Source of the DNA: a virus
Reading direction: 5' to 3' (one strand)
DNA: 37,697 bases
IMG/VR virus record: IMGVR_UViG_3300012927_000013
Location: 1-37,697 of that record
This document shows, one piece after another, positions 1 to 34,222 of the stretch. A program made the translations under genes and the position numbers. The notes beneath the pieces are model-generated. The model was given only the letters and a program-made list of their open reading frames with translations. It made no database searches and had not been told where the DNA came from. How positions within the stretch are numbered: position 1 is the stretch's first letter; each line of letters begins with the position of its first letter.

Positions 1-304
1 AGAGGAAGGGACAGGGTACCTTCCGTTGTGCCGCTTTATGTGTGACCCATTGAAAGACATAACCTAAACCGACGATGGCCGAAAGGCAAAGGTCAGTGGG
101 CTGCCAGCAACCGAGTCGAGACGAATAGCGGCGTCGCAGTAAGATTCGGAAGCCAAGGCACATCGGAGTAAATGCTGACCGAGCAGAGGTAAAGGGCGGG
201 ACCGCTACCCGCAAAAGTTTTGCAGCGAGCATGGTCCGGTTGGAAGCCTCCGGCAAATCCCAAATGCGGGTATTGCGAATTACTCGCTGCAAGAGTTTCG
301 GTAT

Positions 305-417
305 GGCTGCATAACTCAGTTAGGTAGAGTGCCTCCAGCAACGCCTCTCGCTATGGCGATATCCATAGATGAAGCGCCAAGTGAAGGAAGTCCACAGTTC
401 AAATCTGTAGGCAGCCA
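305..417 (+). other. tRNA-like domain with a ~40 nt insertion in the anticodon region
   Basis: A canonical tRNA 5' half is visible. The acceptor strand GGCTGCA (305-311) is followed by T8, a 4 bp D-stem ACTC/GAGT, and a D-loop AGTTAGGTA with the expected GG. The 3' half has T-loop TTCAAAT (398-404) on a CACAG/CTGTA stem and acceptor strand GGCAGCC (410-416), then A. Mismatches are A311-G410 and C393-A409. Between the arms lie about 61 nt instead of the usual 17-22. No 7-base anticodon loop with T33 can be found, and the insert contains the hairpin 351-368. No CCA is encoded. It is not an ordinary tRNA. It may be a tRNA-like end of the larger RNA or a tRNA remnant. Confidence 0.4.
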
Positions 418-422
418 TAGCG

Positions 423-461
423 AAAAGGGTAGAGGCTAACCAGCCCCTACCCTTTTGTTTT
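423..461 (+). terminator. Intrinsic terminator of the structured RNA
   Basis: AAAAGGGTAG (423-432) pairs perfectly with CTACCCTTTT (447-456). The stem is extended inward by GGCT/AGCC around an AACC loop and is followed by GTTTTG. It sits directly after the tRNA-like 3' arm. This indicates that the upstream region is transcribed rightward as a discrete RNA. Confidence 0.85.
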
Positions 462-593
462 GCGATAAAATGGGGATGGCGCACGAAAAGCGTTGTCGCT
501 CTGGTCTCAGAGGATAAACGAGACACGAATTGATAATCCTGCATCTAACGGAAAAGCAACTGCGCTCCTATGCGAGCATGATAGGATATCCCC

Positions 594-1196
594 ATGAGTG
601 AGTTTTCTGCGTTCGAAGCCCGGTTCTTTCGTTTCTTCGAGCCAGTCGCCCAACGGCTTCACCGCATCGAAGAGAATCAAAGCATCATCATCCGAAACCA
701 ACACCACATCCTCGAGGGAATAAAAACCATGTCGACCGCTACCGTAACCCTCTCACAAGCCGTTTCCGACCTGACCATAGCCGTTACCGCCGAGACTGCG
801 GCCGTGGCCGAGAACACCGCTGCGTCCACAGCAGAGGCATCTGCTATCACCGCAGCAACCACAGAGATTGCCGATGCCATCACCGCCTTGCAAAACAGCA
901 GCCCTACTCCTGACCAGTCGGCTCTGATCGCCCAGATCGAAGCGGCTGCCCAGGGTATCAGCGCCAGCGCCACGACCATCAGTGCAAACAACACTGCAAT
1001 CGAGACGTCGAACACCAGCATTGCCAGCAGCACAAGTGCGCTGACGGCGGCAATCCCCGCTCCAAATCCGACTGTTGTTCCTGTCGGAACCTCGGTTACT
1101 GCTCCCGTAAGTACGGGGACAACCGGGACTGGCACTGCAAGTCAGCCCGGCACGGAAGCTGTGGGGACTGATCCCGGAGTCGTTCACGGCGTATAA
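594..1196 (+). CDS. Ala/Thr/Ser-rich low-complexity phage protein
   Basis: 200 residues. The first ~45 (with EARFFRFFEPVAQRLHRIEE) look like an amphipathic or coiled-coil helix. After that comes a long run of Ala/Thr/Ser-rich heptad-like sequence, then a Pro/Thr/Gly-rich tail. There are two possible starts: the ATG at 594, preceded by AGGATAT, and an in-frame ATG at 729, preceded by GAGGG, which would give the low-complexity part alone. Similar Ala/Thr-rich proteins are common beside phage structural genes, but I recognise no function. A short protein of the same style is encoded at 12183. An intrinsic terminator follows. Confidence 0.6.
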   Translation: MSEFSAFEARFFRFFEPVAQRLHRIEENQSIIIRNQHHILEGIKTMSTATVTLSQAVSDLTIAVTAETAAVAENTAASTAEASAITAATTEIADAITALQNSSPTPDQSALIAQIEAAAQGISASATTISANNTAIETSNTSIASSTSALTAAIPAPNPTVVPVGTSVTAPVSTGTTGTGTASQPGTEAVGTDPGVVHGV

Positions 1197-1224
1197 TTTG
1201 TAGATATCCCCCAGCAGACAGGTA

Positions 1225-1255
1225 ACAGAGTCCCACCTTCGGGTGGGATTTCTGT
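1225..1255 (+). terminator. Intrinsic terminator after the Ala/Thr-rich gene
   Basis: TCCCACC (1231-1237) pairs with GGTGGGA (1242-1248) around a TTCG tetraloop. It is flanked by ACAGA (1225-1229) and TCTGT (1251-1255), which extend the stem. TTT follows the inner stem. Confidence 0.8.
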
Positions 1256-1279
1256 TGCGTCCATGCATGGATTTCTGTT

Positions 1280-1288
1280 ATGCTTGCA
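1280..1288 (+). promoter_or_regulatory. Copy of the ATGCTTGCA motif upstream of a small gene
   Basis: Exact ATGCTTGCA, ending 18 nt before the ATG at 1307 and just after the terminator at 1225-1255. It is one of eight exact copies in the window (see 3216, 8019, 8031, 11764, 22312, 29049, 34557). Role inferred: operator or promoter element. Confidence 0.4.
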
Positions 1289-1306
1289 GTTGGACAGGTG
1301 GCAGTT

Positions 1307-1492
1307 ATGGCTCGGACAAAATCCAGATGGGGCGCGCAAGCTTCCGGCAAACGCCGCGGTGCACTCCAGCGCGCAACTGGAACCTCTGCCGGTAGGCCAA
1401 TACCTGCTAGGTTGATGAAAGCTGCTGGACGAGGCAAGTACGGCAAGCGCAACCAGCGCAGGGCCAGTCAAGCACGACGGAGCAGCCGATGA
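1307..1492 (+). CDS. Small Arg/Lys-rich basic protein
   Basis: 61 residues, very basic (MARTKSRWGAQ... ending RRASQARRSSR), with no recognisable domain. It may bind nucleic acid through charge. The ATG at 1307 is chosen because AGGTGG lies about 10 nt upstream. The ATG at 1280 falls inside the recurrent ATGCTTGCA motif and lacks a ribosome site. The stop overlaps the ATG of the next small gene (ATGA), suggesting translational coupling. Function unknown. Confidence 0.5.
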   Translation: MARTKSRWGAQASGKRRGALQRATGTSAGRPIPARLMKAAGRGKYGKRNQRRASQARRSSR

Positions 1493-1608
1493 AATTCGAA
1501 GTTGATACACGCCTTATGTGCCGTGTCTGTACCGGTAATCCAACCCCGGGACACCTATGCAATCGCCATCACAAGGAACTGGAAAAGCAGTTAGCTAAAT
1601 CCCAGTAG
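1489..1608 (+). CDS. 39-residue zinc-finger-like protein
   Basis: The ORF starts at the ATG overlapping the upstream stop (ATGA) and encodes 39 residues with CxxC (CRVC) and a later CNRHH. This is a plausible single zinc site. Its 3' end overlaps the end of the convergent minus-strand gene (1595) by 14 nt. Such tiny Cys-pair proteins are frequent in this window, which supports it being real. Function unknown. Confidence 0.45.
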   Translation: MKFEVDTRLMCRVCTGNPTPGHLCNRHHKELEKQLAKSQ

Positions 1609-2332
1609 ATTTTCTCACCACTTCTTCCAACTTCACCATACCTTCAATATCTGGCTCCACAAGCCCTTTGTAGCGCGTGAAAGCGTCTGCGACACCCTTA
1701 GCATCCCGGTAGGCTTCCAAGAGTGCTGTAGCCCTGAATGTGCGGTCTGGTTCGTCCAGCCGTGCGATGCGCCGGATCTCATGATCGAGCCGTCGACTGA
1801 ATGGCAGTTTCGGAATTGCCATCTCCTGATCGTCTTTGTAGGAAATAGCCTCCATCAGCACCCGGAGCAGGGCCTGGCGGTCGAATCTGGATGGGTCGCG
1901 GTAGTGATGCAGGCAGTTGAAGAAGCGGTGAAAGGATGCGATTGACATCAGCTCGCCGAAGACGGGATCGGACTGAAGTGGGACGTCGTACATCAGGCAG
2001 AGGGTTTGAAGCTCGCCTATGCGAACGCCGGTAAGGTCCGCCACCATCTGCGATGAAAGCCATGGGCGCATCGTGAGTGGCTGAAACATGGTGCGGAGCC
2101 ATGCGATTGCCGCCGGCTTGGGCCGCACAACGAAGTTCTGGCGGGTGAAGCGGAGGTACTGGTGATCGAGCAGTGGCTGCAGGCGGTCGAGCGATACCCC
2201 GAGTTCGGCTGCAAGGTCGTGGAGCGATATCTCACTCGTTCCCTGCGAGCAGCTTTGCTTCGCGGTTGCGCTGGTGACGAAGCGTTGCCATGCGTGAGAA
2301 GTGCTCTTTGCCCTTGCTCTGGAGCGTCGCAT
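1595..2332 (-). CDS. Probable DNA-binding protein with two HTH-like segments; start uncertain
   Basis: The frame runs from at least 2332 to the stop at 1595 (about 245 residues). Two helix-turn-helix-like segments are visible: LHDLAAELGVSLDRLQPLL near the N-terminal third, and SSQMVADLTGVRIGELQTL further on. The C-terminal half is helical and charged. Its first ~100 nt overlap the end of the upstream KGG-like gene (2232-2432) in another frame. No ATG, GTG or TTG lies near the junction in this frame, so the real start is either well inside the upstream gene or reached by frameshifting. Function beyond likely DNA binding is unknown. Confidence 0.5.
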   Translation of the reverse strand: MRRSRARAKSTSHAWQRFVTSATAKQSCSQGTSEISLHDLAAELGVSLDRLQPLLDHQYLRFTRQNFVVRPKPAAIAWLRTMFQPLTMRPWLSSQMVADLTGVRIGELQTLCLMYDVPLQSDPVFGELMSIASFHRFFNCLHHYRDPSRFDRQALLRVLMEAISYKDDQEMAIPKLPFSRRLDHEIRRIARLDEPDRTFRATALLEAYRDAKGVADAFTRYKGLVEPDIEGMVKLEEVVRKSTGI

Positions 2333-2432
2333 TCCCACCGAGTCCGCCGACAATTTCATAGAAGCGGTCGTTTTTCTTGGTAAGGGGCTTAGACTTTTTT
2401 GATCTTTCATTTGTCGTTTTCTTGGACGCCAT
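2232..2432 (-). CDS. Small basic KGG-like protein
   Basis: 66 residues beginning MASKKTTNERSKKSKPLTKK, with a Gly- and Lys-rich core (GGLGGNATLQSKGKEHFSRM). This resembles the short Lys-Gly-Gly stress/phage repeat proteins. The start at 2432 is preferred over an upstream in-frame ATG at 2513 because the residues before it are hydrophobic and out of character. It probably forms an operon with the downstream HTH-like gene. Function unknown. Confidence 0.5.
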   Translation of the reverse strand: MASKKTTNERSKKSKPLTKKNDRFYEIVGGLGGNATLQSKGKEHFSRMATLRHQRNREAKLLAGNE

Positions 2433-2574
2433 AATGAATACAGTGTAATGGTTGCAGAAAGATGGTGCAAGCGTCAAAATGAAGATGTAGAATGAGGTAA
2501 CGTCGGAAGTCATGATCCGATCAGGTGGCTTGGAGTCCTGAGCTCTAGGCCGCCGCCCTACTCAGGAGGATGAC

Positions 2575-3210
2575 ATGGAAATTGCTTACGGCGAGTGCCA
2601 CTGCGGTTGCGGCCAGAAAACCAGAATAGCTACAGATAACCATACAAGAAGCGGAACCGTGCGCGGCAAGCCAAACCCATACATTTTCGGGCATCAGGGG
2701 TTCATGGAGCGCCCAGTAATTGTCCAACCAGATGACCCGATGATTCGCTATATTGCGCTCACGCAAGGACAGGTTGCGATTGTTGACGCATCACGATACG
2801 AATGGCTGATGCAGTGGAAGTGGTATGCCCTCTACGACCCCAAGCTTGACCAGTATTATGCCGAGAGGGGATTGCCAAGTAATCAGACCATGAAGATGCA
2901 CGCGGCGATATTGAATCCGCCGCCGGGAAGAAGGGCAGACCACATCAACGGAAATACGTTGGACAACCGTTACGATAATCTACGCCCATCAACACATAGG
3001 CAGAATGGGATAAACACTAAACTACGAAAAGACAACACTAGCGGATGTAGGGGCATTTCTTGGGATAAATCACGTCAGCGGTTTCAGGTGCATATTACCG
3101 TCAACAACATCCAAATCAATCTTGGCAGGTACAAGGAATTATCGGACGCGCAAGCCGCCTATGAGGTGGCAGCGGAGAAGTTACACGGAGAATACCGCCG
3201 CAAGCAATAA
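2575..3210 (+). CDS. HNH homing endonuclease with AP2 DNA-binding domain
   Basis: 211 residues. Residues 1-45 carry a Cys-rich module (GECHCGCGQKTRIA ... GHQG). A middle region around 60-100 precedes the HNH motif ADHINGNTLDNRYDNLRP (about 121-138). The C-terminal ~50 residues (SGCRGISWDKSRQRF ...) are an AP2-type DNA-binding domain. The family comprises free-standing homing endonucleases of phages that nick or cut a target site and spread by gene conversion. A strong AGGAGGA at 2564-2570 supports the ATG at 2575. The same N-terminal Cys-rich module recurs in the HNH gene at 23082. Confidence 0.85.
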   Translation: MEIAYGECHCGCGQKTRIATDNHTRSGTVRGKPNPYIFGHQGFMERPVIVQPDDPMIRYIALTQGQVAIVDASRYEWLMQWKWYALYDPKLDQYYAERGLPSNQTMKMHAAILNPPPGRRADHINGNTLDNRYDNLRPSTHRQNGINTKLRKDNTSGCRGISWDKSRQRFQVHITVNNIQINLGRYKELSDAQAAYEVAAEKLHGEYRRKQ

Positions 3211-3215
3211 TTCTA

Positions 3216-3244
3216 TTGACATGATGCTTGCATGGAATTAGAGT
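3216..3244 (+). promoter_or_regulatory. Sigma70-like promoter for recT with embedded ATGCTTGCAT motif
   Basis: -35 TTGACA (3216-3221), 17 bp spacer, -10-like TAGAGT (3239-3244). The near-palindrome ATGCTTGCAT (3224-3233) starts exactly 2 bp after the -35, the same geometry as at 8031. The placement suggests a repressor operator that occludes the promoter. recT starts 38 bp downstream of the -10. Confidence 0.55.
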
Positions 3245-3282
3245 TGTGAAAGTAAGAACGAACTGAAAGGAACCCGTCAACC

Positions 3283-4152
3283 ATGTCATCGAACCCATAT
3301 TCTCTCGAAACCATCCAGCCCGCCCAGATCGAAGTGTCTCGATCTGAAACCTTCGCCCCCCGGTCGCTCAAAGAAGCATTTGAGTTCGCCGACATCATCC
3401 TTACTTCCGGGATGGCGCCCAAAGCTTATGCATCCATGAAGCCAGAGGTTGCCCGTGCGACGATTGTCGTTGTGCTCCAGCACGGTTTAGAAGTTGGGTT
3501 GCAACCCATGCAGGCAATTCAGAACATCTCCAGCATTAACGGTAACCCGGCAATCTGGGGAGATGCTGCACTCGCTCTTTGCTATTCCAAGCCGCACATC
3601 TGCCAGTATGTCACCGAGATGGATCTGTCGGAAATCAAGCAGCGCGGTTCGGCGACGTGCAAGGCGAAGCGGCGGGATTCCCCGACCGAAGTGTCTGTGA
3701 CATTCACGATGGACGACGCCAAGACTGCTGGACTGCTTTCGAAGGAGTCTACGTGGGGCAAGTATCCGAGCAGGATGCTTCAACTCAGGGCCCGAGGATT
3801 CGCTCTCCGCAATGCCTTCCCTGACATCATGAAGGGCATGGTTCTTGTCGAGGAAGCGCGCGACTATCCGATCATCGAGGCAGACGCAATGCAGTCGTCC
3901 TCGGTCTCTGCCGATACCCCTGCCACCCAAGAGCCAGTAGACGAACCCATCGGTGCTCCTTTGGCAACGAAGTGGTACAAGGCCTACACTGCCTCTGGCT
4001 GGAACCGCGATGACGCCGCCGTGTACCTGAAGGGCATCGGCATAGAGCCGCCACTGGACTCGCGCAGCATCCCAACATCGAAGCTCGATGATGCGATGGC
4101 ATGGGCCGAGACGCGCAATCCTGAAATTCCAGTCAACCCCGACGCCGAGTAA
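3283..4152 (+). CDS. recT: RecT-family single-strand annealing recombinase
   Basis: 289 residues. The central segment WGKYPSRMLQLRARGFALRNAFPDIMKGM (read in two parts, about residues 155-187) is the hallmark of RecT proteins. So is the earlier GLEVGLQPMQAIQNISSING block, near residue 66. RecT anneals complementary ssDNA exposed by a partner exonuclease, here most likely the nuclease at 5827. The C-terminal ~90 residues are Pro/Ala/Glu-rich and less conserved. A ribosome site (GAAAGGAAC) precedes the ATG at 3283. A sigma70-like promoter with an operator-like palindrome lies just upstream. Cytoplasmic. Confidence 0.85.
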   Translation: MSSNPYSLETIQPAQIEVSRSETFAPRSLKEAFEFADIILTSGMAPKAYASMKPEVARATIVVVLQHGLEVGLQPMQAIQNISSINGNPAIWGDAALALCYSKPHICQYVTEMDLSEIKQRGSATCKAKRRDSPTEVSVTFTMDDAKTAGLLSKESTWGKYPSRMLQLRARGFALRNAFPDIMKGMVLVEEARDYPIIEADAMQSSSVSADTPATQEPVDEPIGAPLATKWYKAYTASGWNRDDAAVYLKGIGIEPPLDSRSIPTSKLDDAMAWAETRNPEIPVNPDAE

Positions 4153-4182
4153 TCTAGGCATAGACAGTTTTACGGAGGAAAC

Positions 4183-4569
4183 ATGAAGCGTATTTTCGTC
4201 ATTACGGCAGTTCTTCTTTTCGCGGCAGTAGCATTCGCGCAACAATCACCGGCGGTCAATCAACCGCATACGGGTACACCGATGGTTGAGGTCAAGCCGA
4301 AGGTGGCTGCGATCGACGATTCCGTCAAGCTGGCCCTGGCCACAGAAGAGAACGTGCAACTCAAAGCGCAGATCATCAGCACCCAGGTGAAGGAGCAACT
4401 CGACAAGCAGCTCAACGAGCTCCGGACGCAGTTCGTGGATGCAGACAAGGTTGTGGCGGCATACGAACTCAAGGTGAAGAAGGAAAACGGCTGGGGTGAT
4501 GACGTCGTTTTCAACCGGCAGACCCACAAGTTCGAGAAGCCTGCTCCGGCTCCTGCGGCTGGAAAGTAG
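4183..4569 (+). CDS. Small exported protein with coiled-coil
   Basis: 128 residues. The N-terminus MKRIFVITAVLLFAAVAFAQ is a clear Sec signal peptide with an AFA|Q cleavage site. The mature part has a charged helical stretch (about 50-100, NVQLKAQIISTQVKEQLDKQ) likely to form a coiled coil, then a Pro/Ala tail. ACGGAGGAAAC before the ATG is a good ribosome site. It lies 30 nt after recT and probably shares its transcript. Exported proteins are unusual in a recombination block. Function unknown. Confidence 0.7.
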   Translation: MKRIFVITAVLLFAAVAFAQQSPAVNQPHTGTPMVEVKPKVAAIDDSVKLALATEENVQLKAQIISTQVKEQLDKQLNELRTQFVDADKVVAAYELKVKKENGWGDDVVFNRQTHKFEKPAPAPAAGK

Positions 4570-4614
4570 TCACAAGTTCTCGCGTGGGTATCTTGACGGG
4601 TTCCCTGCGCGGGT

Positions 4615-4650
4615 GAGGGTGGTCGGTGCATGGCTGCGGTGGCCACCCTC
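4615..4650 (+). other. Strong RNA hairpin between two genes
   Basis: GAGGGTGG (4615-4622) pairs perfectly with CCACCCTC (4643-4650) around a ~20 nt loop. No T-run follows, so it is not a classical terminator. It could stabilise or attenuate the transcript ahead of the membrane-protein gene at 4679. Confidence 0.5.
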
Positions 4651-4678
4651 TAAACATCTCTGTCAATCGAGGACGAAC

Positions 4679-5044
4679 ATGGCTAGCGATACGAAGCTTT
4701 CGGTAACCCAATCGTTTTTTGTATTCCCTGCTGCGGTGACTATGATTGCCGTGATGTGGTTTCTGATGATCCCATTCGGCATCTTCGATGCCTGGATCAA
4801 GGTTCATCTGTGGACATGGTTCGCGGTTCCCTACCTGCACGCGCCACAGATCACGCTCTGGCCGATGTATGGAATAAACTGTATCGTTACAGCGTTCAAA
4901 ACTGTAACCAGCAGCGACTCCAAGAAAGACGAGAATGAGAACGGTTGGGATAAATCGATGAAGATGATTGGTCAGCTTGTGATTGGCCCGCTACTCCTGC
5001 TCTTCACCGGATACGCTATCCATCTTTGGATGATTGGGAATTAG
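4679..5044 (+). CDS. Small integral membrane protein
   Basis: 121 residues. Hydrophobic segments are at about 10-35 (FFVFPAAVTMIAVMWFLMIP), 45-75 and a C-terminal one (IGQLVIGPLLLLFTGYAIHL), separated by a charged stretch (SSDSKKDENENG). The ATG at 4679 is chosen for the GAGGA 7 nt upstream; the in-frame ATG at 4496 lies inside the previous gene. It is followed at once by a run of very small genes. It could be holin-like, but it is far from the endolysin. Function unknown. Confidence 0.6.
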   Translation: MASDTKLSVTQSFFVFPAAVTMIAVMWFLMIPFGIFDAWIKVHLWTWFAVPYLHAPQITLWPMYGINCIVTAFKTVTSSDSKKDENENGWDKSMKMIGQLVIGPLLLLFTGYAIHLWMIGN

Positions 5045-5046
5045 CC

Positions 5047-5232
5047 ATGTCGATCGTCGAAACCGTAGAGGCGAGGATGGCCGAGATCAGCAAGTATTAC
5101 TCGGACTGTCTGGAGTTTGAGTTCGGTCTCCATGCTGGCCTATGCACTGAGGCGGAGCGCCCGATTCGCCCGAAGTTCGCGGACTCTATTCGCAACCCGC
5201 CCACCTACGGAACCATTGCGAGAAAGAGGTAG
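5047..5232 (+). CDS. Small hypothetical protein
   Basis: 61 residues (MSIVETVEARMAEISKYYSD...), acidic N-terminal half and basic C-terminus. It starts 2 nt after the stop of the membrane protein gene, so it is probably translationally coupled. No domain recognised. Confidence 0.45.
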   Translation: MSIVETVEARMAEISKYYSDCLEFEFGLHAGLCTEAERPIRPKFADSIRNPPTYGTIARKR

Positions 5233-5235
5233 TCC

Positions 5236-5457
5236 ATGCGTGGAACCGACGTAACTCCAGAGCAACTGGAAGCGGCCAGCGTCTTCCTCGATAACCTGTG
5301 GCTCCGTGATAGGCCAGAAGGCCATGAGATCGTTTCCTTGCGATACGAAGAACTTGTGCGGGCAATGGCATGGTACGGAGCATTGCGAGCGGATGGTGCC
5401 TTGCGTGGAGTTGGCGATACGGAACATCCGACGGCCTTGTTCTCGGTGAAGCCATGA
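5236..5457 (+). CDS. Small hypothetical protein
   Basis: 73 residues (MRGTDVTPEQLEAASVFLDN...), mostly helical with an internal RYEELVRAMAWYGALRADGA segment. It begins 3 nt after the previous stop, and its own stop overlaps the ATG of the next gene (ATGA). It is part of a tightly packed cassette between recT and the exonuclease. Function unknown. Confidence 0.55.
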   Translation: MRGTDVTPEQLEAASVFLDNLWLRDRPEGHEIVSLRYEELVRAMAWYGALRADGALRGVGDTEHPTALFSVKP

Positions 5458-5624
5458 GGCCGGAGCCGATTGAAGAATGGTATGACAATATCGTTGCGCT
5501 TATAGGGGTTCCGTCTACGCCGAGACTCGAAGCGATTGAGGGCATGAGGTCGCTTTACGATAAGGGATACCATCCTGGATTGATAGCCACGGTGTTCAAA
5601 GAGATTCACATGGTGAAGGAGTAG
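5454..5624 (+). CDS. Small hypothetical protein
   Basis: 56 residues (MRPEPIEEWYDNIVALIGVP...). The ATG at 5454 overlaps the upstream stop as ATGA, which fixes the start in preference to the longer in-frame ORF from 5370. Helical, no domain recognised. Same cassette. Confidence 0.5.
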   Translation: MRPEPIEEWYDNIVALIGVPSTPRLEAIEGMRSLYDKGYHPGLIATVFKEIHMVKE

Positions 5625-5626
5625 TG

Positions 5627-5830
5627 ATGACAAACGGAAAAACATGGCTAGGGATAAACAAGAAAGGGCTGAAAGGGGTGTTAATGTTTTGGTTCTTCGT
5701 CCTTTCCATTGTTATTTTCTGTATTGTCCTGCGGATTGCGGTTAACGGCTCATTGACGGCTCAGATATTTATCGCAATTTTCCTATTTGGTTCAGTCTCT
5801 AACGTTATCTATACGGTGAGCAGCCGGTGA
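5627..5830 (+). CDS. Small two-helix membrane protein
   Basis: 67 residues. Two hydrophobic helices (GVLMFWFFVLSIVIFCIVL and AQIFIAIFLFGSVSNVIYTV) follow a basic N-terminus. A GTG at 5624 is an alternative start; the ATG at 5627 is preferred. Its end overlaps the GTG start of the exonuclease gene by 4 nt. It could be a holin- or superinfection-type membrane protein, but nothing in the sequence decides this. Confidence 0.5.
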   Translation: MTNGKTWLGINKKGLKGVLMFWFFVLSIVIFCIVLRIAVNGSLTAQIFIAIFLFGSVSNVIYTVSSR

Positions 5831-6480
5831 GCATCATCTCCATCGATGGCGGAACCTTCCAGCGGGAAGGCCATATTTACCGCGATTCAACAGGTGTGCT
5901 CGTCCCTTCGATTACGCAAATCCTCCGCCTCCAAGGCCTCACTGACTACTCCATGATCGCACCCGACGTCCTCCGAAACGCCCAGGAAAGAGGCACCGAA
6001 GTTCACGACTTGACCGCCGCCTATGATACTCACGGAGAGATTGACGAATCGTGGATTACCGATCGCGTGAGGCCGTACTACCAGGCATACATGAAGTTCC
6101 GCGCGGAGAACCACTTCGTGCCCGATCCCGAGTGGATCGAAAAAGGCATCATCGCTACGCTATTCGGAATGAAGGTGGCTATGACGCCAGATCGCTTCGG
6201 CAAACTGAACGGCCATGATTGCGTTCTTGAACTTAAATGTGTTGAGGCCGAACAGCCATCATGGGCTTTCCAGACGGCCGCCCAGGAACTCGGAGTTTAC
6301 AAGTCGACGCGGGCTGGCCGGGCGATACGGATTGCAGTGCAGTTGAAGAAATCAGGCAAGTATCATTTGTGCTCGCACAAGAACGGTGCCTACGACGTCA
6401 GCCAGTTTATCGCGGCTACGACTACGGTGTACGGACGCATGAATGCAGGACAGGACTTGCTGGCGAAGCTGGCGGCATAG
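5827..6480 (+). CDS. PD-(D/E)XK family phage exonuclease, probable RecT partner
   Basis: 217 residues with a GTG start overlapping the previous stop. Catalytic signature: D122 in TPDRFG, then ELK at 135-137, then QTAAQELGVY at about 149-158. This is the RecB/Cas4/lambda-type nuclease core. Enzymes of this class resect dsDNA ends and deliver ssDNA to an annealing protein, here RecT at 3283. The two genes are separated by a block of six small genes. Length fits small phage exonucleases. Cytoplasmic, metal-dependent. Confidence 0.75.
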   Translation: MSIISIDGGTFQREGHIYRDSTGVLVPSITQILRLQGLTDYSMIAPDVLRNAQERGTEVHDLTAAYDTHGEIDESWITDRVRPYYQAYMKFRAENHFVPDPEWIEKGIIATLFGMKVAMTPDRFGKLNGHDCVLELKCVEAEQPSWAFQTAAQELGVYKSTRAGRAIRIAVQLKKSGKYHLCSHKNGAYDVSQFIAATTTVYGRMNAGQDLLAKLAA

Positions 6481-6488
6481 GAGAAGAG

Positions 6489-7538
6489 ATGAAAGAACGG
6501 CCCATACTTTTCAGCTCACCCATGGTTCAAGCAATCCTTGCAGGCAGGAAGGTGCAGACGCGGCGGATCGTGAAGGATCAACCGAGCGAAGACTGGCATC
6601 CCGAAGGTGTCGGCTTGTATGCGCCTACGAGAGTCGATCAGCACGGCGAAGAATATCCCGGTACTGATGTCTACGGCGCTGCGGATGAAGATGAAGGTCG
6701 TATATGCCCATACGGCAAGCCTGGAGATAGGTTGTGGGTGGCGCAAGAGGCTGAAACATATTCCAAAACCGTTCCTATCGCAGAGAGATTTTGGTCGCGC
6801 GTTTATAAGTTCGAGTCATGCTGGGAATGGTTTGGCTTGGTCGATCGGAAGGGATATGGACGTATAAGAAACGCTGGCGAGCAGATATCTACACATCGAC
6901 TTTCTTGGGAATTGGCTAATGGTCACATACCTGCCGGGAAGCATGTATTGCATACCTGCGACCTGCGGTGGTGCGTGAATCCCGATCATTTATATCTCGG
7001 GAATAACGATGACAATATTTCCGACAAGGTTGCTCATGGGCGGGTATCGAAACAAAATGGGTCCGTCAACGGCATGTCCATCTTGAATGATGCGGAAATA
7101 TTATCTATCAAACTCCTGTCGGATAAAGGATGGAGACAGCAGGACATAGCGGAACGCCACAGTGTCACGCAATCTCAGATATCCAGAATCCTATCTGGAA
7201 AACGATGGCTTCCAGCAGTAGCTCCTATGCCTCTATTGGGACATCGCACTCTGGAGATCGCAGAGGTACGCGTACAGCGATTGCAAGAAACTAGCGCCGT
7301 AGACGCCATTTACGAAGGCGTACTATCACTTGGCCACGAATGGATAGATGGACACTTCCCAGCTTATGCGGCGGAGCACGCGCAGTGGAAACGGCTTGCT
7401 CTGTCCAATATCGCTCCGCCGCTCGGTCCCAGTCCTGTTGCGCGCTACAGAGCATTGTGGGAGGACATCAACGGTGCTAGAAGTTGGGCGGCGAATCCAT
7501 GGGTGTGGGTTGTCAGCTTTTCGATGGTGGCATCATGA
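6489..7538 (+). CDS. ASCH-domain phage protein interrupted in frame by an HNH-HTH module
   Basis: 349 residues. The first ~85 (MKERPILFSSPMVQAILAGR, TRRIVKDQP, PYGKPGDRLWV) and the last ~105 (LEIAEVRVQRL, then WEDINGARSW, ANPWVWVV) match the two ends of the phage ASCH-like family. Between them, about 89-240 is an HNH endonuclease (GYGRI, HVLHTCDLRWCVNPDH at about 152-167) followed by an HTH segment (WRQQDIAERHSVTQSQISRI, 215-234). The central ASCH segment appears to be missing. Compare the HNH gene at 23082, which has the same core and tail. The reading frame is open throughout. The ATG at 6489 follows GGAGAAGAG. Whether it is spliced, bifunctional or inactivated is unknown. Confidence 0.75.
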   Translation: MKERPILFSSPMVQAILAGRKVQTRRIVKDQPSEDWHPEGVGLYAPTRVDQHGEEYPGTDVYGAADEDEGRICPYGKPGDRLWVAQEAETYSKTVPIAERFWSRVYKFESCWEWFGLVDRKGYGRIRNAGEQISTHRLSWELANGHIPAGKHVLHTCDLRWCVNPDHLYLGNNDDNISDKVAHGRVSKQNGSVNGMSILNDAEILSIKLLSDKGWRQQDIAERHSVTQSQISRILSGKRWLPAVAPMPLLGHRTLEIAEVRVQRLQETSAVDAIYEGVLSLGHEWIDGHFPAYAAEHAQWKRLALSNIAPPLGPSPVARYRALWEDINGARSWAANPWVWVVSFSMVAS

Positions 7539-7747
7539 CCGGAAAATACCTAACTCTCCGCGAAGTTGACCTTTTCGCCTTCCGAGATCCAATCCAACCC
7601 TGCACGTACTGGAGTTCAGGCGAGCATGTAGTGGCGGATGGCAAGTGCCGGTGCGGACGTGAGTTTTGGGTATCAGAATTGGTCGCTGGCGGATCACGCG
7701 ATTTGGAAGCGGGTCATAGGCATGTGCTAGCTCCCAAGGATATGTGA
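7535..7747 (+). CDS. Small Cys-containing hypothetical protein
   Basis: 70 residues starting at the ATG that overlaps the ASCH/HNH stop (ATGA). It contains a CTYW and later CRCGREFWVSE, possibly one metal site. It ends by overlapping the next start. No family recognised. Confidence 0.5.
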   Translation: MTGKYLTLREVDLFAFRDPIQPCTYWSSGEHVVADGKCRCGREFWVSELVAGGSRDLEAGHRHVLAPKDM

Positions 7748-8019
7748 TGGAAGAATGTGATCCCAAGGCCGGCCATCGCCCCACACGAAAAGAATGGGGC
7801 GTAGTGTATCTGGAGTGGCGCAAGCAGCATCTGCATTGGACTCCGGCGCAGCGTGGCCGTATCGTGCGAGGATGTTGGGGTAAGCAGGCGTTTGATGGAT
7901 TTATGGAAGCGGCTTGGGTGGTGAGTCGTTTGGAGCCGCGACCTGGCGTAAAGGCTGGATGTTACATCTGCGAGATTTGTAAAAAGTGGCATGTGGGAAA
8001 TTCTCGGTTCAAGAAATAA
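7747..8019 (+). CDS. Small protein with C-terminal zinc ribbon half-site
   Basis: 90 residues (ATG 7747, with a GTG alternative at 7744). The basic, aromatic N-terminal part (RKEWGVVYLEWRKQHLHWTP) is followed by CYICEICKKWH near the C-terminus, a CxxCxxC cluster. It is the last gene before a promoter region, and its stop overlaps the first ATGCTTGCA copy at 8019. Function unknown. Confidence 0.55.
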   Translation: MEECDPKAGHRPTRKEWGVVYLEWRKQHLHWTPAQRGRIVRGCWGKQAFDGFMEAAWVVSRLEPRPGVKAGCYICEICKKWHVGNSRFKK

Positions 8020-8052
8020 TGCTTGCACTCATGCTTGCATAAAGTGTATGCT
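8019..8052 (+). promoter_or_regulatory. Promoter with two ATGCTTGCA copies
   Basis: ATGCTTGCA occurs at 8019-8027 and again as ATGCTTGCAT at 8031-8040, 12 bp apart. TTGCAC inside the first copy (8023-8028) is spaced 18 bp from TATGCT (8047-8052), giving a plausible -35/-10 pair. The second copy begins 2 bp after the -35, exactly as at 3216-3244. Tandem copies on about one helical turn suggest cooperative binding by a repressor. Confidence 0.55.
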
Positions 8053-8079
8053 TCACCTAGCAAGAAAAGGAGCCCGTCA

Positions 8080-9354
8080 ATGAAACATCAGTGCGATTCC
8101 AGCCTCATCGAAGAATTTGAGTATAACGACAGCGAATGGATTTTCTCGCTTCGTTTTCGCGGCACGAAAGAAGTGCGGCACTACAGCGGATTTCCCCCAG
8201 ACCTGTACGACGATTTTGAAAAGTCGCAGTCAAAGGGGAAGTTCTTCAACCAGTTCATCGCCAAGAAGTTCACTGTCCAGCGCGAGGAAGTTGCACCGGA
8301 TATCGAGGGATACGTACCGGAGAAGGTCGAGGTTGATCCCCAGCTTGAAGCTGACATCGCGGCTACGGAAGCGCGGTGGGCGAAGCGGTCGGCGCAGGAG
8401 ATGAGGCAGGTCTTGGACGCGGTCAGTCCAACATTTGCATCCATTCCTCCGTCGTCCAATCCGGTCGAAGGCAATCTGTTTGACGTACCAGTTACGGTCG
8501 TTGCGCCGAAGTTGAACGGGTTTGACGCTGACGTGGAAACCCAACGCCCTTCCGCGCCGAAGACTGTCATTGCCGAAATTCTACCACCGGAGGCTGAATT
8601 GCCTAAACAGAACGACACGCAGATCACCGCCATGACTGAAGAGGCAAAGCAGCTTGCGGCCAAGCCAATCATTGTGACGGCGGCGACCTACCAGAGCGTC
8701 TATGATCATGTCGCGGACATGACGGCAAAGCGCAAGCGGCTGTTTGAGTTCCTTGATCCTATCCGCGACGCCATGTACAAGGCCTACAACCTGATGCAGT
8801 CGCGTCAAAAGATGGCACTTGAGCCACTGGACAACGCGATTACGGCTGGTAAGCGGGCGTTGTTGGCCTACGACCAAGAGCAGGAGCGGAAGCGGGCTGA
8901 AGCGCAGCGTATCGCCGACGAGAAGGCTATCGCCGATGCCGAGGCAGAACGCAAGCGGATCAGCGAAGAGATGACGCTGGCGGAGATGAATGATGCTCTC
9001 GTCTCTGGAGATACAGAGCGGGCAGAGGAGATTTTCCAAAACCCGATAGAAGCGCCGCCGATGCAGGTCTATGCTCCGCGCGTTCAGGAGTATCAGGCAC
9101 CGTCCGTACAGGGCAAGTCAACCCGTAAGAACTGGAAGGTCGAGGTTACTGATCTCGACGCTCTTATCCTCGACGTCGCTGCAGGTATTGAGCATTTCCG
9201 CAAGCACAAGAACCTTGGCGGGCACGCACCGGCATCGTTCCTTCTGCCTAATGGAACTGCTATCAACCAGCAGGCTAAGGCACAGGAGTCTGTTTTCAAC
9301 GTCCCTGGATGCCGGGCCTTCAACGATGCCGTGATGAGCGTGCGAGGGAGATAG
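8080..9354 (+). CDS. KTSC-domain protein with long coiled-coil, recombination-block protein
   Basis: 424 residues. Residues ~5-75 form a KTSC domain (FEYNDSEWIFSLRFRGTKEV, HYSGFPPDLYDDFEKS). After a Pro-rich linker comes a conserved phage-type region. It has a charged coiled coil (about 240-330, rich in KRAEAQRIADEKAIADAEAE) and a C-terminal block NWKVEVTDLDALILDVAAGI ... NGTAINQQAK. Proteins ending this way often accompany RecT/exonuclease modules. Exact role unknown. The ATG at 8080 is chosen for the AGGAGC upstream; the in-frame ATG at 8023 lies in the operator region. A second KTSC protein is encoded at 10209. Confidence 0.65.
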   Translation: MKHQCDSSLIEEFEYNDSEWIFSLRFRGTKEVRHYSGFPPDLYDDFEKSQSKGKFFNQFIAKKFTVQREEVAPDIEGYVPEKVEVDPQLEADIAATEARWAKRSAQEMRQVLDAVSPTFASIPPSSNPVEGNLFDVPVTVVAPKLNGFDADVETQRPSAPKTVIAEILPPEAELPKQNDTQITAMTEEAKQLAAKPIIVTAATYQSVYDHVADMTAKRKRLFEFLDPIRDAMYKAYNLMQSRQKMALEPLDNAITAGKRALLAYDQEQERKRAEAQRIADEKAIADAEAERKRISEEMTLAEMNDALVSGDTERAEEIFQNPIEAPPMQVYAPRVQEYQAPSVQGKSTRKNWKVEVTDLDALILDVAAGIEHFRKHKNLGGHAPASFLLPNGTAINQQAKAQESVFNVPGCRAFNDAVMSVRGR

Positions 9355-9464
9355 ATTTTATTGTGGCGTGGTCATGTTAGGTGCGGTATGTTTCGGCCGG
9401 TTTAGGCGGGGCTCGGCATGCTAGGGCAAGGTATGGGTTTCATAAATCAAATCGAGGACGATAT

Positions 9465-10106
9465 ATGGCGAAGGCTGGAGCGGCAGAAGCGATAAGCGAA
9501 GTGTCCAACGGGGCGAAGGAAGTGATTGAAAACTCATTTCCATACATTGCTCTAATCACAATTGAAGGTGTGGCAGACATGTTGTTGCACGCGTGGAATG
9601 TTGAGGCGATCGAAGAGAAGTCGGCCGCCAAGAAGGGTTCAGCGGCGAAGAAGTCCGATAACGTAGAATCGTACGTTCGTCGCAATGGGGATGGCGTCAT
9701 CTGCCTGCCGACGGAGTACCTGCGGATGTCAGTGGTGAATGCTGCGAAGTTCCGGCAAGACCCGCGTTCACCGCGCAAGTCGGCGATGGATCTCTACAAG
9801 GCTGCGCTGGTTAGCCTGCGTCCTCTATCGCCGATTACGACGGTCGCCGGGGAACTTCCGAAGGTGTGGGACTATGAGCATCGCTGCCGCGTCCAGGTGC
9901 AGCGTAACGGCATCACTCGGTGTCGCCCTGCATTTCGTGAAGGCTGGAAGGCGGATATAGCGCTGATGGTCAATCTTCCCGAGTATGTGTCTCCGCGTGA
10001 ACTTCACGAGGTAATATCCTCGGCTGGTCGGCTGATTGGTGTCGGCGATTTCCGCCCAACTTACGGACGGTTCCAGGTGACGAGTTTCGAGATTCAAAAA
10101 GATTGA
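9465..10106 (+). CDS. Conserved phage-type hypothetical protein
   Basis: 213 residues. Start at the ATG at 9465 behind GAGGA. The N-terminus is Ala/Glu-rich, and a Lys/Ala-rich linker (EKSAAKKGSAAKKS) follows near residue 48. The C-terminal half is compact, ending LIGVGDFRPTYGRFQVTSFE. The glycine-rich G-x-GD-F-R-P-x-Y-GRF element is faintly reminiscent of RAMP-type glycine loops, but that alone is not enough to assign a family. It sits between RecT-module genes and dnaB and is flanked by GGCAAGGTATG repeats. Confidence 0.55.
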   Translation: MAKAGAAEAISEVSNGAKEVIENSFPYIALITIEGVADMLLHAWNVEAIEEKSAAKKGSAAKKSDNVESYVRRNGDGVICLPTEYLRMSVVNAAKFRQDPRSPRKSAMDLYKAALVSLRPLSPITTVAGELPKVWDYEHRCRVQVQRNGITRCRPAFREGWKADIALMVNLPEYVSPRELHEVISSAGRLIGVGDFRPTYGRFQVTSFEIQKD

Positions 10107-22758: not shown

Positions 22759-23105
22759 TGCCAAGCAACGACTACGTTGTGGGGGCGCTATATTTGCCGG
22801 GTGGTCCGGGTGGGTTCTGGACGCAACCAGGTGGAGTTGGTACGCCAGTCCTGCCTCGCCAAGTAACTGGTGGCTTTGAACTGCTCACGACAGAACCATT
22901 CAACGAGCTCACGGGTGCCTACATTGGCATCTGCAGTCACAGTTTTCTCTACTGCACCGTCTACCGCGATATAGACGTTAATACGGGTCTCAGCGTAGCG
23001 ATATTAACGTGCCCTCTTTGCTCCTGCGTGCAAAGAACTATAAGCCCGTTCGAAGCTGCCATAGGTCCAGAGTCGATGCTTTTAAATGCTATTTTGTATC
23101 CGTAG
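22758..23105 (+). CDS. Conserved phage-type hypothetical protein
   Basis: 115 residues. Gly/Pro-rich N-terminus (VGALYLPGGPGGFWTQPGGV), then beta-rich sequence. The C-terminal block CPLCSCVQRTISPFEA carries a CxxC and is of a type I associate with phage genomes near packaging or structural genes. Function unknown. The last 24 nt overlap the convergent HNH gene. Confidence 0.6.
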   Translation: MPSNDYVVGALYLPGGPGGFWTQPGGVGTPVLPRQVTGGFELLTTEPFNELTGAYIGICSHSFLYCTVYRDIDVNTGLSVAILTCPLCSCVQRTISPFEAAIGPESMLLNAILYP

Positions 23106-23789
23106 GACCGCCTCCTCCCTAATCTTTCGATTTCTTCTGCCACTGTAAATAGACTCTAGCGTGTCATCTTTTATGCCTACCGCCAAAGATATTGATTTCC
23201 ACGTCACGCCCAATGATCTAAGTTCGAATGTCTTAATGATATCGTCCACAGAAACCGTAGATCGCCCATGACGATTTCGATGTTCAATGCTCGTCAGAGC
23301 TTCCGTGTGATCTGGATTTACACACAACGACTGCTCGCATTTGTGGTGTAGCTCTAGTCCGCGGCTAATAGAGCCGTATCGTTCTTCGAAAAAATGTCGA
23401 TGCGCCGCAACGCTCTTGCCATTTAGAGAAATCCTGCCATACCCTTCTTTATCCGCAGTCATCAGCCATATCCAACATTTTGTCGAGTATCCTGTATCTT
23501 TCTCTTCATACCGAGCACTTCCGAGAACTCGGGTTTTATGTCCATGACCCTTTACGTAACGATATGGCAGTCCTTTCACGAGACGGTCGGGCAAGTTAGA
23601 ACAGGCAATAATCTTGGTTTTCGATCCGCACATACAAAAGCATTCGCCAAAAGCTACCCCAACACCGGCGCATTCTTGGGCGTATAGGGTTTTGGAAATT
23701 AAAAAACTGGAAGCTGTCACCTTGTGATAGGCGCGTTTGATATAAACTTTTGAATTGGGAGCTGTCATAGTCGGAAACCTCATTTCCAT
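23082..23789 (-). CDS. HNH homing endonuclease with HTH tail
   Basis: 235 residues. A Cys-rich N-terminal module (GECFCMCGSKTKIIA ... KGHG, about 48-84) resembles the one at 2575. The HNH_3-type core is GYGRISLNGKSVAAHRHFF with ELHHKCEQSLCVNPDH (about 146-161). A C-terminal HTH-like segment follows (SLGVTWKSISLAVGIKDD). The core and tail also match the module inserted in the ASCH gene at 6489. Probably a free-standing homing endonuclease; its exact start is uncertain (ATG 23789 or 23768). Confidence 0.8.
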   Translation of the reverse strand: MEMRFPTMTAPNSKVYIKRAYHKVTASSFLISKTLYAQECAGVGVAFGECFCMCGSKTKIIACSNLPDRLVKGLPYRYVKGHGHKTRVLGSARYEEKDTGYSTKCWIWLMTADKEGYGRISLNGKSVAAHRHFFEERYGSISRGLELHHKCEQSLCVNPDHTEALTSIEHRNRHGRSTVSVDDIIKTFELRSLGVTWKSISLAVGIKDDTLESIYSGRRNRKIREEAVLRIQNSI

Positions 23790-25191: not shown

Positions 25192-25680
25192 CTAAGACCT
25201 CTCAGGCTGGAAGGAGTAGGTGCATTTCCCGATAAGCAATGGGGAAAGATGTAAAGTTTCTGGCGTGCAGAGTGCATCGAAATCGGCCAGCACATTGAGT
25301 GGCTGCAACCCGGCTTGCTGCATAAATTGAAGCATCAGGGCAGAGCAGATCACTCGATGCGGATTCCACGTTCGATGCTTGAGAGCCAAGCCGACAATGT
25401 CGGAATAGTCGTACTTCTCGCCTATCTTCGACTCCAGCCAAGTGTGTGCGATATCGAACTGTTCTTCTGGAATCGGAATAGAATACCGACGCTCATAGGG
25501 AGGCTTGCAGTAGTCCAGCCGCCTCTCCTGAACGCCTGTGCCAGCGTGTGCCCCGATCCAGCCTCGCCCGTCTCGCGACAAGCATTCGGTGTGAATCCAG
25601 AGCGAGTTGGTGACGTAGCGGATTCCCGCACTGACAAATCCGGTGCCTCCGATGAAGCGGATTACGATTGAATCGGGCAT
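25192..25680 (-). CDS. Papain-like (YiiX/NlpC-P60-type) cysteine amidase
   Basis: 162 residues. The layout follows the permuted papain-like fold. His30 in the segment LWIHTECLSRDG is followed by a central GEKYDYSDIVGLAL. The likely nucleophile is Cys112 in HRVICSALMLQFMQQAG. The family hydrolyses amide or ester bonds in peptidoglycan or lipids. No signal peptide is visible, so it acts in the cytoplasm or is released at lysis. It abuts the HNH gene upstream (TAAATG). Distance from the lysis genes makes a lytic role uncertain. Confidence 0.65.
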   Translation of the reverse strand: MPDSIVIRFIGGTGFVSAGIRYVTNSLWIHTECLSRDGRGWIGAHAGTGVQERRLDYCKPPYERRYSIPIPEEQFDIAHTWLESKIGEKYDYSDIVGLALKHRTWNPHRVICSALMLQFMQQAGLQPLNVLADFDALCTPETLHLSPLLIGKCTYSFQPERS

Positions 25681-28165: not shown

Positions 28166-28389
28166 TAGATTAACCCCAGTTTGGCAAATTCACGGATCGC
28201 AAGTTCCCGAACTTCAGGATCGAGCTTGGCGTACAAGTCTTGCCGAGCTTCCGCCTCTTTAATCTTTCGCTCAGATCTGTACAGTCGCGACCGACGCTCT
28301 AGCGATTCACGGGTTAGAGGCTTACCGCAAAATCTTGACCGCTTACCGCTAAGCCTATTGTCCCTGTCTAGCATTCTCCCTTTAGCCAT
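28165..28389 (-). CDS. Small basic protein
   Basis: 74 residues (MAKGRMLDRDNRLSGKRSRF...), Arg/Lys-rich with a charged helix (RLYRSERKIKEAEARQDLYA). It overlaps the HNH gene upstream by 8 nt. Likely nucleic-acid contact by charge; otherwise unknown. Confidence 0.55.
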   Translation of the reverse strand: MAKGRMLDRDNRLSGKRSRFCGKPLTRESLERRSRLYRSERKIKEAEARQDLYAKLDPEVRELAIREFAKLGLI

Positions 28390-28867
28390 TCGCCCCCTTC
28401 TTTCTAAGCTCGGGCATATCGCATCCTCGCTTGTTATTGCACGGTTCGCACGCTAAAACACGGTTTTTCGCATTGTCCAGTCCCCCTCGAGACAAGGGAA
28501 TTATGTGTTCCGCCGTAGCTGTATCCAGCGTCAAAACAGCCTTGCACCAATGGCAGAGAGTTGATTTTCCGTAAAACTCGTTCTTACGAAAGATAGCCGC
28601 CTTGATAGCCTTGTACTTCTTCCGCCGCTCCTTGCGATCAGCCGTAGCCATTGGTGGTGGCTCCAGGGCCATCTGGATTGCTTTGGCGGGGCTTACATGG
28701 TTGAACCGTCGTGTTGTGCCGGCAACGTAGGCGGACTGCTTCTTAGCTCCAGGGTAGTAGTTCACGAGCAACCCCTTGCCGTGGATTTGAATATGCCCAG
28801 CGCCACACTCCTTTACCTGCAACCCGTGGGGTTTGGCTGCAATCTGTAGTGATTCGAGCGTCGTCAT
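28382..28867 (-). CDS. HNH endonuclease with N-terminal extension
   Basis: 161 residues from the ATG at 28867 (GAGAGG upstream). The N-terminal ~75 residues (MTTLESLQIAAKPHGLQVKE..., then VNYYPGAKKQSAYV) may contact DNA. The C-terminal half is a textbook HNH: CHWC (105-108), TAEHIIPLSRGGLDNAKN (His121 onwards), CEPCNNKRG. Overlaps the upstream gene by ATGA. Probably a homing or defence-type nuclease. Confidence 0.85.
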   Translation of the reverse strand: MTTLESLQIAAKPHGLQVKECGAGHIQIHGKGLLVNYYPGAKKQSAYVAGTTRRFNHVSPAKAIQMALEPPPMATADRKERRKKYKAIKAAIFRKNEFYGKSTLCHWCKAVLTLDTATAEHIIPLSRGGLDNAKNRVLACEPCNNKRGCDMPELRKKGANG

Positions 28868-29034
28868 TTCACCTCTCTGTGGCACTTCTTAGCGTGATCG
28901 CAATAAACACAATTCTCATTCGCGCCGAGTTCAAACGTATCGCACGGCCCCATGTTGTCAGGGTAAGTATCACACCCGCAGTCAGTGCGCGGATGCCGGG
29001 GTGTCATCGTTGTATCACAAAGTGGAAGGCTCAT
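28864..29034 (-). CDS. Cys-rich small protein
   Basis: 56 residues from the ATG at 29034 (MSLPLCDTTMTPRHPRTDCG...) with eight cysteines, ending CVYCDHAKKCHREVK. GAGGG precedes the start. It is first in its operon after the promoter at 29037-29058. Its metal-binding pattern recalls treble-clef or ribbon folds. Function unknown. Confidence 0.6.
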   Translation of the reverse strand: MSLPLCDTTMTPRHPRTDCGCDTYPDNMGPCDTFELGANENCVYCDHAKKCHREVK

Positions 29035-33636: not shown

Positions 33637-34055
33637 GGCCTCTCTCCATACTGCATTGAGCACTTCATATTTTCCTCAATCATGCTGAAGCGGTCTGGAT
33701 CATCATTGCAAGGACCACCTAGCTTCCATGGACATGGTCCATCATCCGAAGGACCAACGAGTACGTAAGGATGCAGCCATCGAGGGTCTTTGATTTCTTC
33801 AATCTCCGATTCTGGTTTCCATTCATGGCCAGGAATTTTCCCATACGAATAGATGAAAATGTCTGGGTATGAACGTTTCCAGGAAACTGGGATCTCCGAT
33901 TCTGGCATCCATGGATGGACGGGAAATTCCATACAGTAATGCCAGTCACTGCAAGGTAGACGTTTTTCCTGGTCGTCATACTTAGCACTAGGATTCTCGA
34001 CGCCACATCCCACAGCAGTTAACAGTGCGCCGATAGCGATCCATCGAAATATCAT
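33633..34055 (-). CDS. Small lipoprotein with internal repeat
   Basis: 140 residues from the ATG at 34055. The signal MIFRWIAIGALLTAVGC carries a lipobox. The mature part has a repeated WMPESEIPVSW / WKPESEIEEI element, a Pro/Trp/Cys-rich composition and several cysteines that could form disulfides in the periplasm. It overlaps the upstream gene by ATGA. Function unknown. Confidence 0.6.
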   Translation of the reverse strand: MIFRWIAIGALLTAVGCGVENPSAKYDDQEKRLPCSDWHYCMEFPVHPWMPESEIPVSWKRSYPDIFIYSYGKIPGHEWKPESEIEEIKDPRWLHPYVLVGPSDDGPCPWKLGGPCNDDPDRFSMIEENMKCSMQYGERP

Positions 34056-34222
34056 GGAATTTTCTTCCCATCCACATACTTCCAAGTAACGAGACCGAGC
34101 CTGATGCCAGCGTTGATTATTTCAAGATATCGATCAAAATCTGTGTTTTCCAATTGGCCCATAAGCGCTTTTACTTCAGGATCAGTCGATTCGAATTCGA
34201 CATAGATTTCATCTTGGATCAT
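34052..34222 (-). CDS. 56-residue hypothetical protein
   Basis: Short ORF from 34222 with AGGAG upstream (MIQDEIYVEFESTDPEVKAL ... YVDGKKIP). It overlaps the lipoprotein start downstream. Acidic N-terminal half. Function unknown. Confidence 0.55.
   Translation of the reverse strand: MIQDEIYVEFESTDPEVKALMGQLENTDFDRYLEIINAGIRLGLVTWKYVDGKKIP

Follow-up and report, generated by a model that had tools for sequence, protein, structure and literature searches.

The DNA analysed here is a linear virus contig of 37.7 kb (37,697 nucleotides; hereafter the window, positions of which are given without a contig name). Positions 1-461, at its very end, form the 3' end of a non-coding element, the remainder of which is cut off by the contig end. 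A DNA pattern scan of IMG/VR recovered only one overlapping contig, L002, which is 99.98% identical to window positions 1-10085 over 10,085 bp and extends 4,265 bp beyond the window to the left (L002 position = 10086 minus window position). On L002, the left flank contains a large ORF, small ORFs, four tRNA genes and a tRNA-Met-like piece, followed by a non-coding stretch leading into the window. Therefore, the element is longer than first noted and is tied to a tRNA island. All four tRNA genes as well as the tRNA-Met-like piece encode CCA; the latter received no ARAGORN call and is 81% identical over 51 nt to a tRNA-Met of Serratia phage ChuuTotoro (blastn). The features of the locus are as follows:

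L002 11068-10701: tRNA-Leu(CAA), tRNA-Ser(GCT), tRNA-Ser(TGA) and tRNA-Tyr(GTA), called by ARAGORN
L002 ~10650-10580, minus strand: degenerate tRNA-Met-like piece (~71 nt) in which the D-arm is shortened, the anticodon loop reads CTCATAA and CCA is encoded
L002 10243-10168, minus strand: putative permuted tRNA mimic in the order T-arm, capped acceptor hairpin, D-arm, anticodon-like hairpin
1-460, plus strand: 3' part of the non-coding RNA, continuing left on L002 (overlapping contig, sliding z-scores)
215-297, plus strand: local stem-loop domain of 14 pairs, AAGTTTTGCAGCGAG / CTCGCTGCAAGAGTT, just 5' of the tRNA-like domain (inverted repeat I4)
296-425, plus strand: tRNA-like cloverleaf with normal arm order in which both the acceptor and the arm at the anticodon position are lengthened (folding, descriptor)
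296-310, plus strand: 5' strand of the lengthened acceptor helix, with GGCTGC at 305-310 as its tRNA-like part (inverted repeat I1)
314-330, plus strand: D-arm, ACTC-AGTTAGGTA-GAGT (sequence, descriptor, fold)
344-387, plus strand: lengthened hairpin at the anticodon position (local pairing probability 0.9)
394-408, plus strand: T-arm, ACAG-TTCAAAT-CTGT (local pairing probability 0.92)
411-425, plus strand: 3' strand of the lengthened acceptor helix, without CCA (inverted repeat I1, fold)
424-460, plus strand: intrinsic-terminator-like hairpin (424-456) and T-rich tail (inverted repeat I2, local pairing probability 0.88)

A terminator-like hairpin is located immediately before tRNA-Leu (L002 11101-11074, minus strand), and transcription into the tRNA island must therefore either read through this hairpin or start after it. 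The promoter/terminator scan gave no promoter match directly upstream of the RNA. The two contigs differ at few positions, one of which, position 15 (T in L002, G in the window), falls within the RNA and, being near the contig end, may be an assembly error. Elsewhere, the fragment carries at least four HNH endonuclease genes (2575-3210, 6261-7538, 23082-23789 and 28382-28885) and, at 25192-25680 on the minus strand, a gene whose product resembles a PHROG annotated as enoyl-CoA hydratase/carnitine racemase-like. For a 758-aa stretch of the large ORF adjoining the tRNAs, searches of IMG/VR and GTDB identified the overlapping contig as the only relative, and the phage lineage is poorly represented in the collections searched.

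An earlier note on this sequence had described a D-arm, a TTCAAAT T-arm and an acceptor-like helix at the 3' end of a terminator-ended, structured RNA. All three are present (314-330, 394-408 and 305-310, respectively, the GGCTGC of the last pairing with GCAGCC), and descriptor, z-score and fold all bear out a tRNA-like 3' domain: folded alone, 295-426 reached a z-score of -4.58 with none of 200 shuffles being as stable, and forcing the tRNA-like arms in the fold cost 0.3 kcal/mol. The acceptor stem of the earlier description does form a helix, which, however, is not that of a tRNA, as it continues beyond both tRNA ends to give 14 pairs between 296-310 and 411-425. Similarly, the excess length that had been ascribed to a ~40-nt insertion at the anticodon is real, since D-arm and T-arm are 62 nt apart compared with ~23 nt in tRNA, but this interval consists of a 13-nt linker and the long arm at 344-387. 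A descriptor combining D-arm, T-arm and acceptor found all four neighbouring real tRNAs; with a limit of 120 nt its sole match on both strands of the window was at 305-398 (chance rate 0.0023 per kb), and at 150 nt one additional, looser match occurred at 34038-34190. An extended descriptor (T-arm, D-arm and lengthened acceptor) matched at this one place in L002 and had two matches in 10 Mb of simulated sequence. No tRNA was called at 296-425 by ARAGORN or by the Rfam tRNA model, and no CCA follows the acceptor, unlike in the neighbouring tRNA genes. The arm at the anticodon position contains CGCTATGGC (349-357), a perfect complement of GCCATAGCG (414-422) in the 3' strand of the acceptor (inverted repeat I3), and an alternative fold of the domain is therefore possible.

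The second tRNA-like domain lies ~160 bases left of the window, outside the sequence on which the earlier note was based, and its arms occur in permuted order. The T-arm, CCGGG-TTCAACT-CCCGG, is directly abutted by an acceptor hairpin with a 3-nt loop, ATGTGTGG-ATT-CCGCACAT, after which follow GGAG and a D-arm, CGCGTC-ATGGTA-GACGCG; one base further begins an anticodon-like hairpin of five pairs and seven loop bases, GGCAC-AGTACGG-GTGCC. Pairing is complete in the acceptor hairpin (8/8) and the D-arm (6/6), and the local minimum-energy fold contains all four arms. In 12 Mb of simulated sequence, a strict descriptor of this arrangement matched once without the last hairpin and not at all with it, and in ~1.04 Mb scanned in total on both strands (L002 copies included) it gave no match in the other phage loci. 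Again, there was no call by ARAGORN or the Rfam tRNA model, and no CCA. The RNA is thus predicted to carry two tRNA-like domains with sealed acceptor ends, in the permuted domain by the 3-nt loop and at 296-425 by the outward continuation of the helix. With the acceptor ends sealed and CCA absent, neither mimic should be chargeable.

The structured extent runs from about L002 10316 down to 9626, some 0.7 kb devoid of any long ORF. The dense pairing and the terminator that had been proposed earlier were both confirmed, the terminator hairpin (424-456) being absent from the list of a simple terminator scan. Sliding z-scores were mostly negative between the terminator and a point ~230 bases left of the window, beyond which they stayed near zero as far as about the tRNA genes; between the two tRNA-like domains the fold signal was modest. 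The stem-loop at 215-297 had a z-score of -2.87 (3 of 200 shuffles as stable). For L002 9661-10330 (670 nt, without the terminator) the z-score was -3.0 (20 shuffles), and for a 1-kb stretch, also without the terminator, -2.2. The 1-kb fold first brought up a long-range helix of 15-18 pairs between a segment ~418 bases left of the window and positions 329-347, which was dropped as 58 of 80 shuffles contained a better one; the 5'-3' closing helix of the same fold competed for the T-arm and acceptor strands. The z-scores together with a long-range helix at chance level favour a model in which the RNA is a chain of local domains, the two tRNA mimics being by far the best supported.

No homologue bearing the RNA was found by DNA patterns, neighbouring proteins, blastn or related viral records. 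Apart from L002, further pattern scans of IMG/VR gave chance matches, mostly within coding sequence; neighbouring proteins used as bait in IMG/VR and GTDB genomes led to no locus with the RNA, blastn identified no relative of it in phage and plasmid records, and it was not found in the whole records of 30 related viral contigs. RNA structures are usually proven by covariation; here the structure is predicted from single-sequence folding, which limits the confidence in it. At L022 7212-7896, close to a relative of a small neighbouring gene, a structured gap was rejected as a candidate, as its conserved sequences make it look like a group I intron. It is probably such an intron (GTTCAGAGACTAGA and ATATAGTCC elements), and the phage in which it lies has a small protein in common with the present one.

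Several other explanations have to be weighed against a long RNA with two tRNA mimics. The earlier note had proposed an RNase P-like RNA with a tRNA-like end fused to it, for which its short sequence blocks are the one argument. No family of RNase P RNA matched in any covariance-model search, neither up to E = 10 on positions 1-700 and on a 1.1-kb region with the 5' flank nor up to E = 1 on the whole L002 locus; including the 5' flank had been set beforehand as the refuting test, and the proposal failed it. The RF00010 model, which found nothing on the whole overlapping contig, gave matches above the cut-off in 8 of 14 control genomes, demonstrating that the search works. As no match appeared at any threshold used, the likeness to bacterial RNase P RNA (RF00010, RF00011) ends with both being structured RNAs; RNase P is excluded as far as the models allow, and we regard the fusion as having next to no chance of being correct. 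Among the options that the earlier note had listed, a substrate mimic or decoy remains the best. It had also considered that 305-417 might be an ordinary tRNA gene. An anticodon stem with one mismatch (CCTCC/GAAGG) can indeed be drawn by eye around the ~40-nt insertion, as if a small intron interrupted the anticodon loop, and the D- and T-arms are canonical. However, ARAGORN called no tRNA or tmRNA and no Rfam family scored above threshold in the window, no group I intron family matched, CCA is missing next to neighbours that encode it, and both strands of the helix run on beyond the acceptor, which makes an intron-containing tRNA very improbable. Decay of the tRNA array, by which both domains would be functionless leftovers of the last tRNA genes in the island, is a more serious, though still rather unlikely, alternative. 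Both domains lie beside an island with a degenerate tRNA-Met-like piece at its end, the 3' half of one tRNA next to the 5' half of another could give the permuted order, and neighbouring tRNA genes in other phages sometimes satisfy a loose version of the permuted descriptor. Remnants would, however, be expected to lose pairing, whereas here the permuted acceptor and D-arm are fully paired and the acceptor at 296-425 is even extended; in addition, the matching other halves are not seen in the flanks, and the strict descriptor with its last hairpin is absent from simulated sequence.

Known RNAs with tRNA-like parts were also compared. Like tmRNA, the present RNA contains a tRNA-like domain inside a longer molecule, and in permuted tmRNA genes a loop joins the acceptor ends. 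Here, however, the D-arm is full, CCA is lacking and no tag reading frame was found; ARAGORN detected no tmRNA in the window or L002, nor did any tmRNA family of Rfam match on the 1.1-kb stretch. GOLLD and ROOL are large phage RNAs that often lie near tRNA islands, and GOLLD linkers sometimes carry tRNAs (PMC12286853), so that a very divergent member containing tRNA-like parts would, like the RNA described here, be large, structured and next to a tRNA island. Against this, a search of the 1.1-kb stretch with all of Rfam gave, up to E = 10, neither GOLLD nor ROOL nor any further giant-RNA family, the GOLLD model (RF02032) found nothing on the contig, long-range pairing is not significant, and nothing here points to oligomers or to a long-range fold of the RNA as a whole; membership in either family is unlikely. 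We attach a similarly low probability to the RNA being a true YrlA-family Y RNA that works with a Ro60 protein from elsewhere in the phage or the host. The permuted domain does have the order of the YrlA consensus (RF02553), namely a T-arm, an abutting acceptor hairpin with a 3-nt loop, a short linker and a D-arm, the module being captured by the strict descriptor with its 0-1 matches in 12 Mb of simulated sequence, and YrlA likewise contains a tRNA mimic that is not chargeable. The positive control, a Rhizobium plasmid sequence that is YrlA-like and lies beside a TROVE gene, matched a slightly relaxed descriptor. Phages with YrlA-like sequences in tRNA arrays also appear to exist: Gordonia phage Forza (MK814760.1 88633-88686; L056 901-954) has an unannotated YrlA-like permuted module inside a tRNA array, which is overlapped by an ARAGORN-called tRNA-Leu and the flanks of which, inspected by eye, can form a Y-like stem; in this locus the descriptor flagged a different T-loop and not the module at 88633-88686. 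In the present RNA, however, an anticodon-like hairpin follows the D-arm in place of the closing Y stem, and folding with a Y stem was ~7 kcal/mol worse (-36.1 compared with -43.0 with the hairpin). The RNA is also far longer than the 90-150 nt of YrlA and has a second tRNA-like domain, the best score of the YrlA covariance model was 17 bits against a gathering threshold of 69 and did not fall on the permuted domain, and no Ro60/TROVE gene occurs in the two contigs, which represent an incomplete phage genome. As the order of the module matches while the model score is below threshold and a TROVE gene is absent from both contigs, the permuted domain is named YrlA-like: it resembles YrlA in architecture and is not taken for a YrlA.

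We therefore return to a structured phage RNA of ~0.7 kb, located directly 3' of the tRNA island, with two unchargeable tRNA mimics and a probable role as decoy or scaffold for a tRNA-binding protein, a reading to which we give about even weight for and against. The RNA would be transcribed together with the tRNAs and be left as a separate molecule after tRNA processing. Most likely, the mimics would then act through their tRNA elbows, formed by D-loop and T-loop, which may be bound by an elbow-recognizing protein. In YrlA, itself a case of tRNA mimicry, the tRNA-like domain binds PNPase and carries modifications made by TruB and DusA, while Ro60 binds to the stem (PMC8394870), and competitive inhibition of an anticodon nuclease by YrlA has been suggested (PMC7790460). 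Candidate partners of the phage RNA could be PNPase, which has been proposed for YrlA, an enzyme that modifies tRNAs, or a host defence nuclease that cuts tRNAs, and the protein would either be kept off the real tRNAs or be held on an RNA scaffold. By analogy, capture or recruitment of a tRNA-binding protein during infection would be the most likely function. More tentatively, and with somewhat less than even confidence, the RNA may represent a new class of long phage RNAs linked to tRNA islands, in which two sealed mimics capture or neutralize a tRNA-binding factor, such as a host defence nuclease that cuts tRNAs.

If this is true, tRNA mimicry by a phage RNA bears on how phage translation is protected against defences that target tRNAs, and also on why large unexplained phage RNAs adjoin tRNA islands. 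A permuted YrlA-type module within a long RNA without a recognized Ro60 partner would, in addition, broaden the known range of bacterial Y RNAs. As the permuted order was missed here by both ARAGORN and the Rfam models, similar modules may be overlooked elsewhere, and such modules can be found with a simple descriptor.
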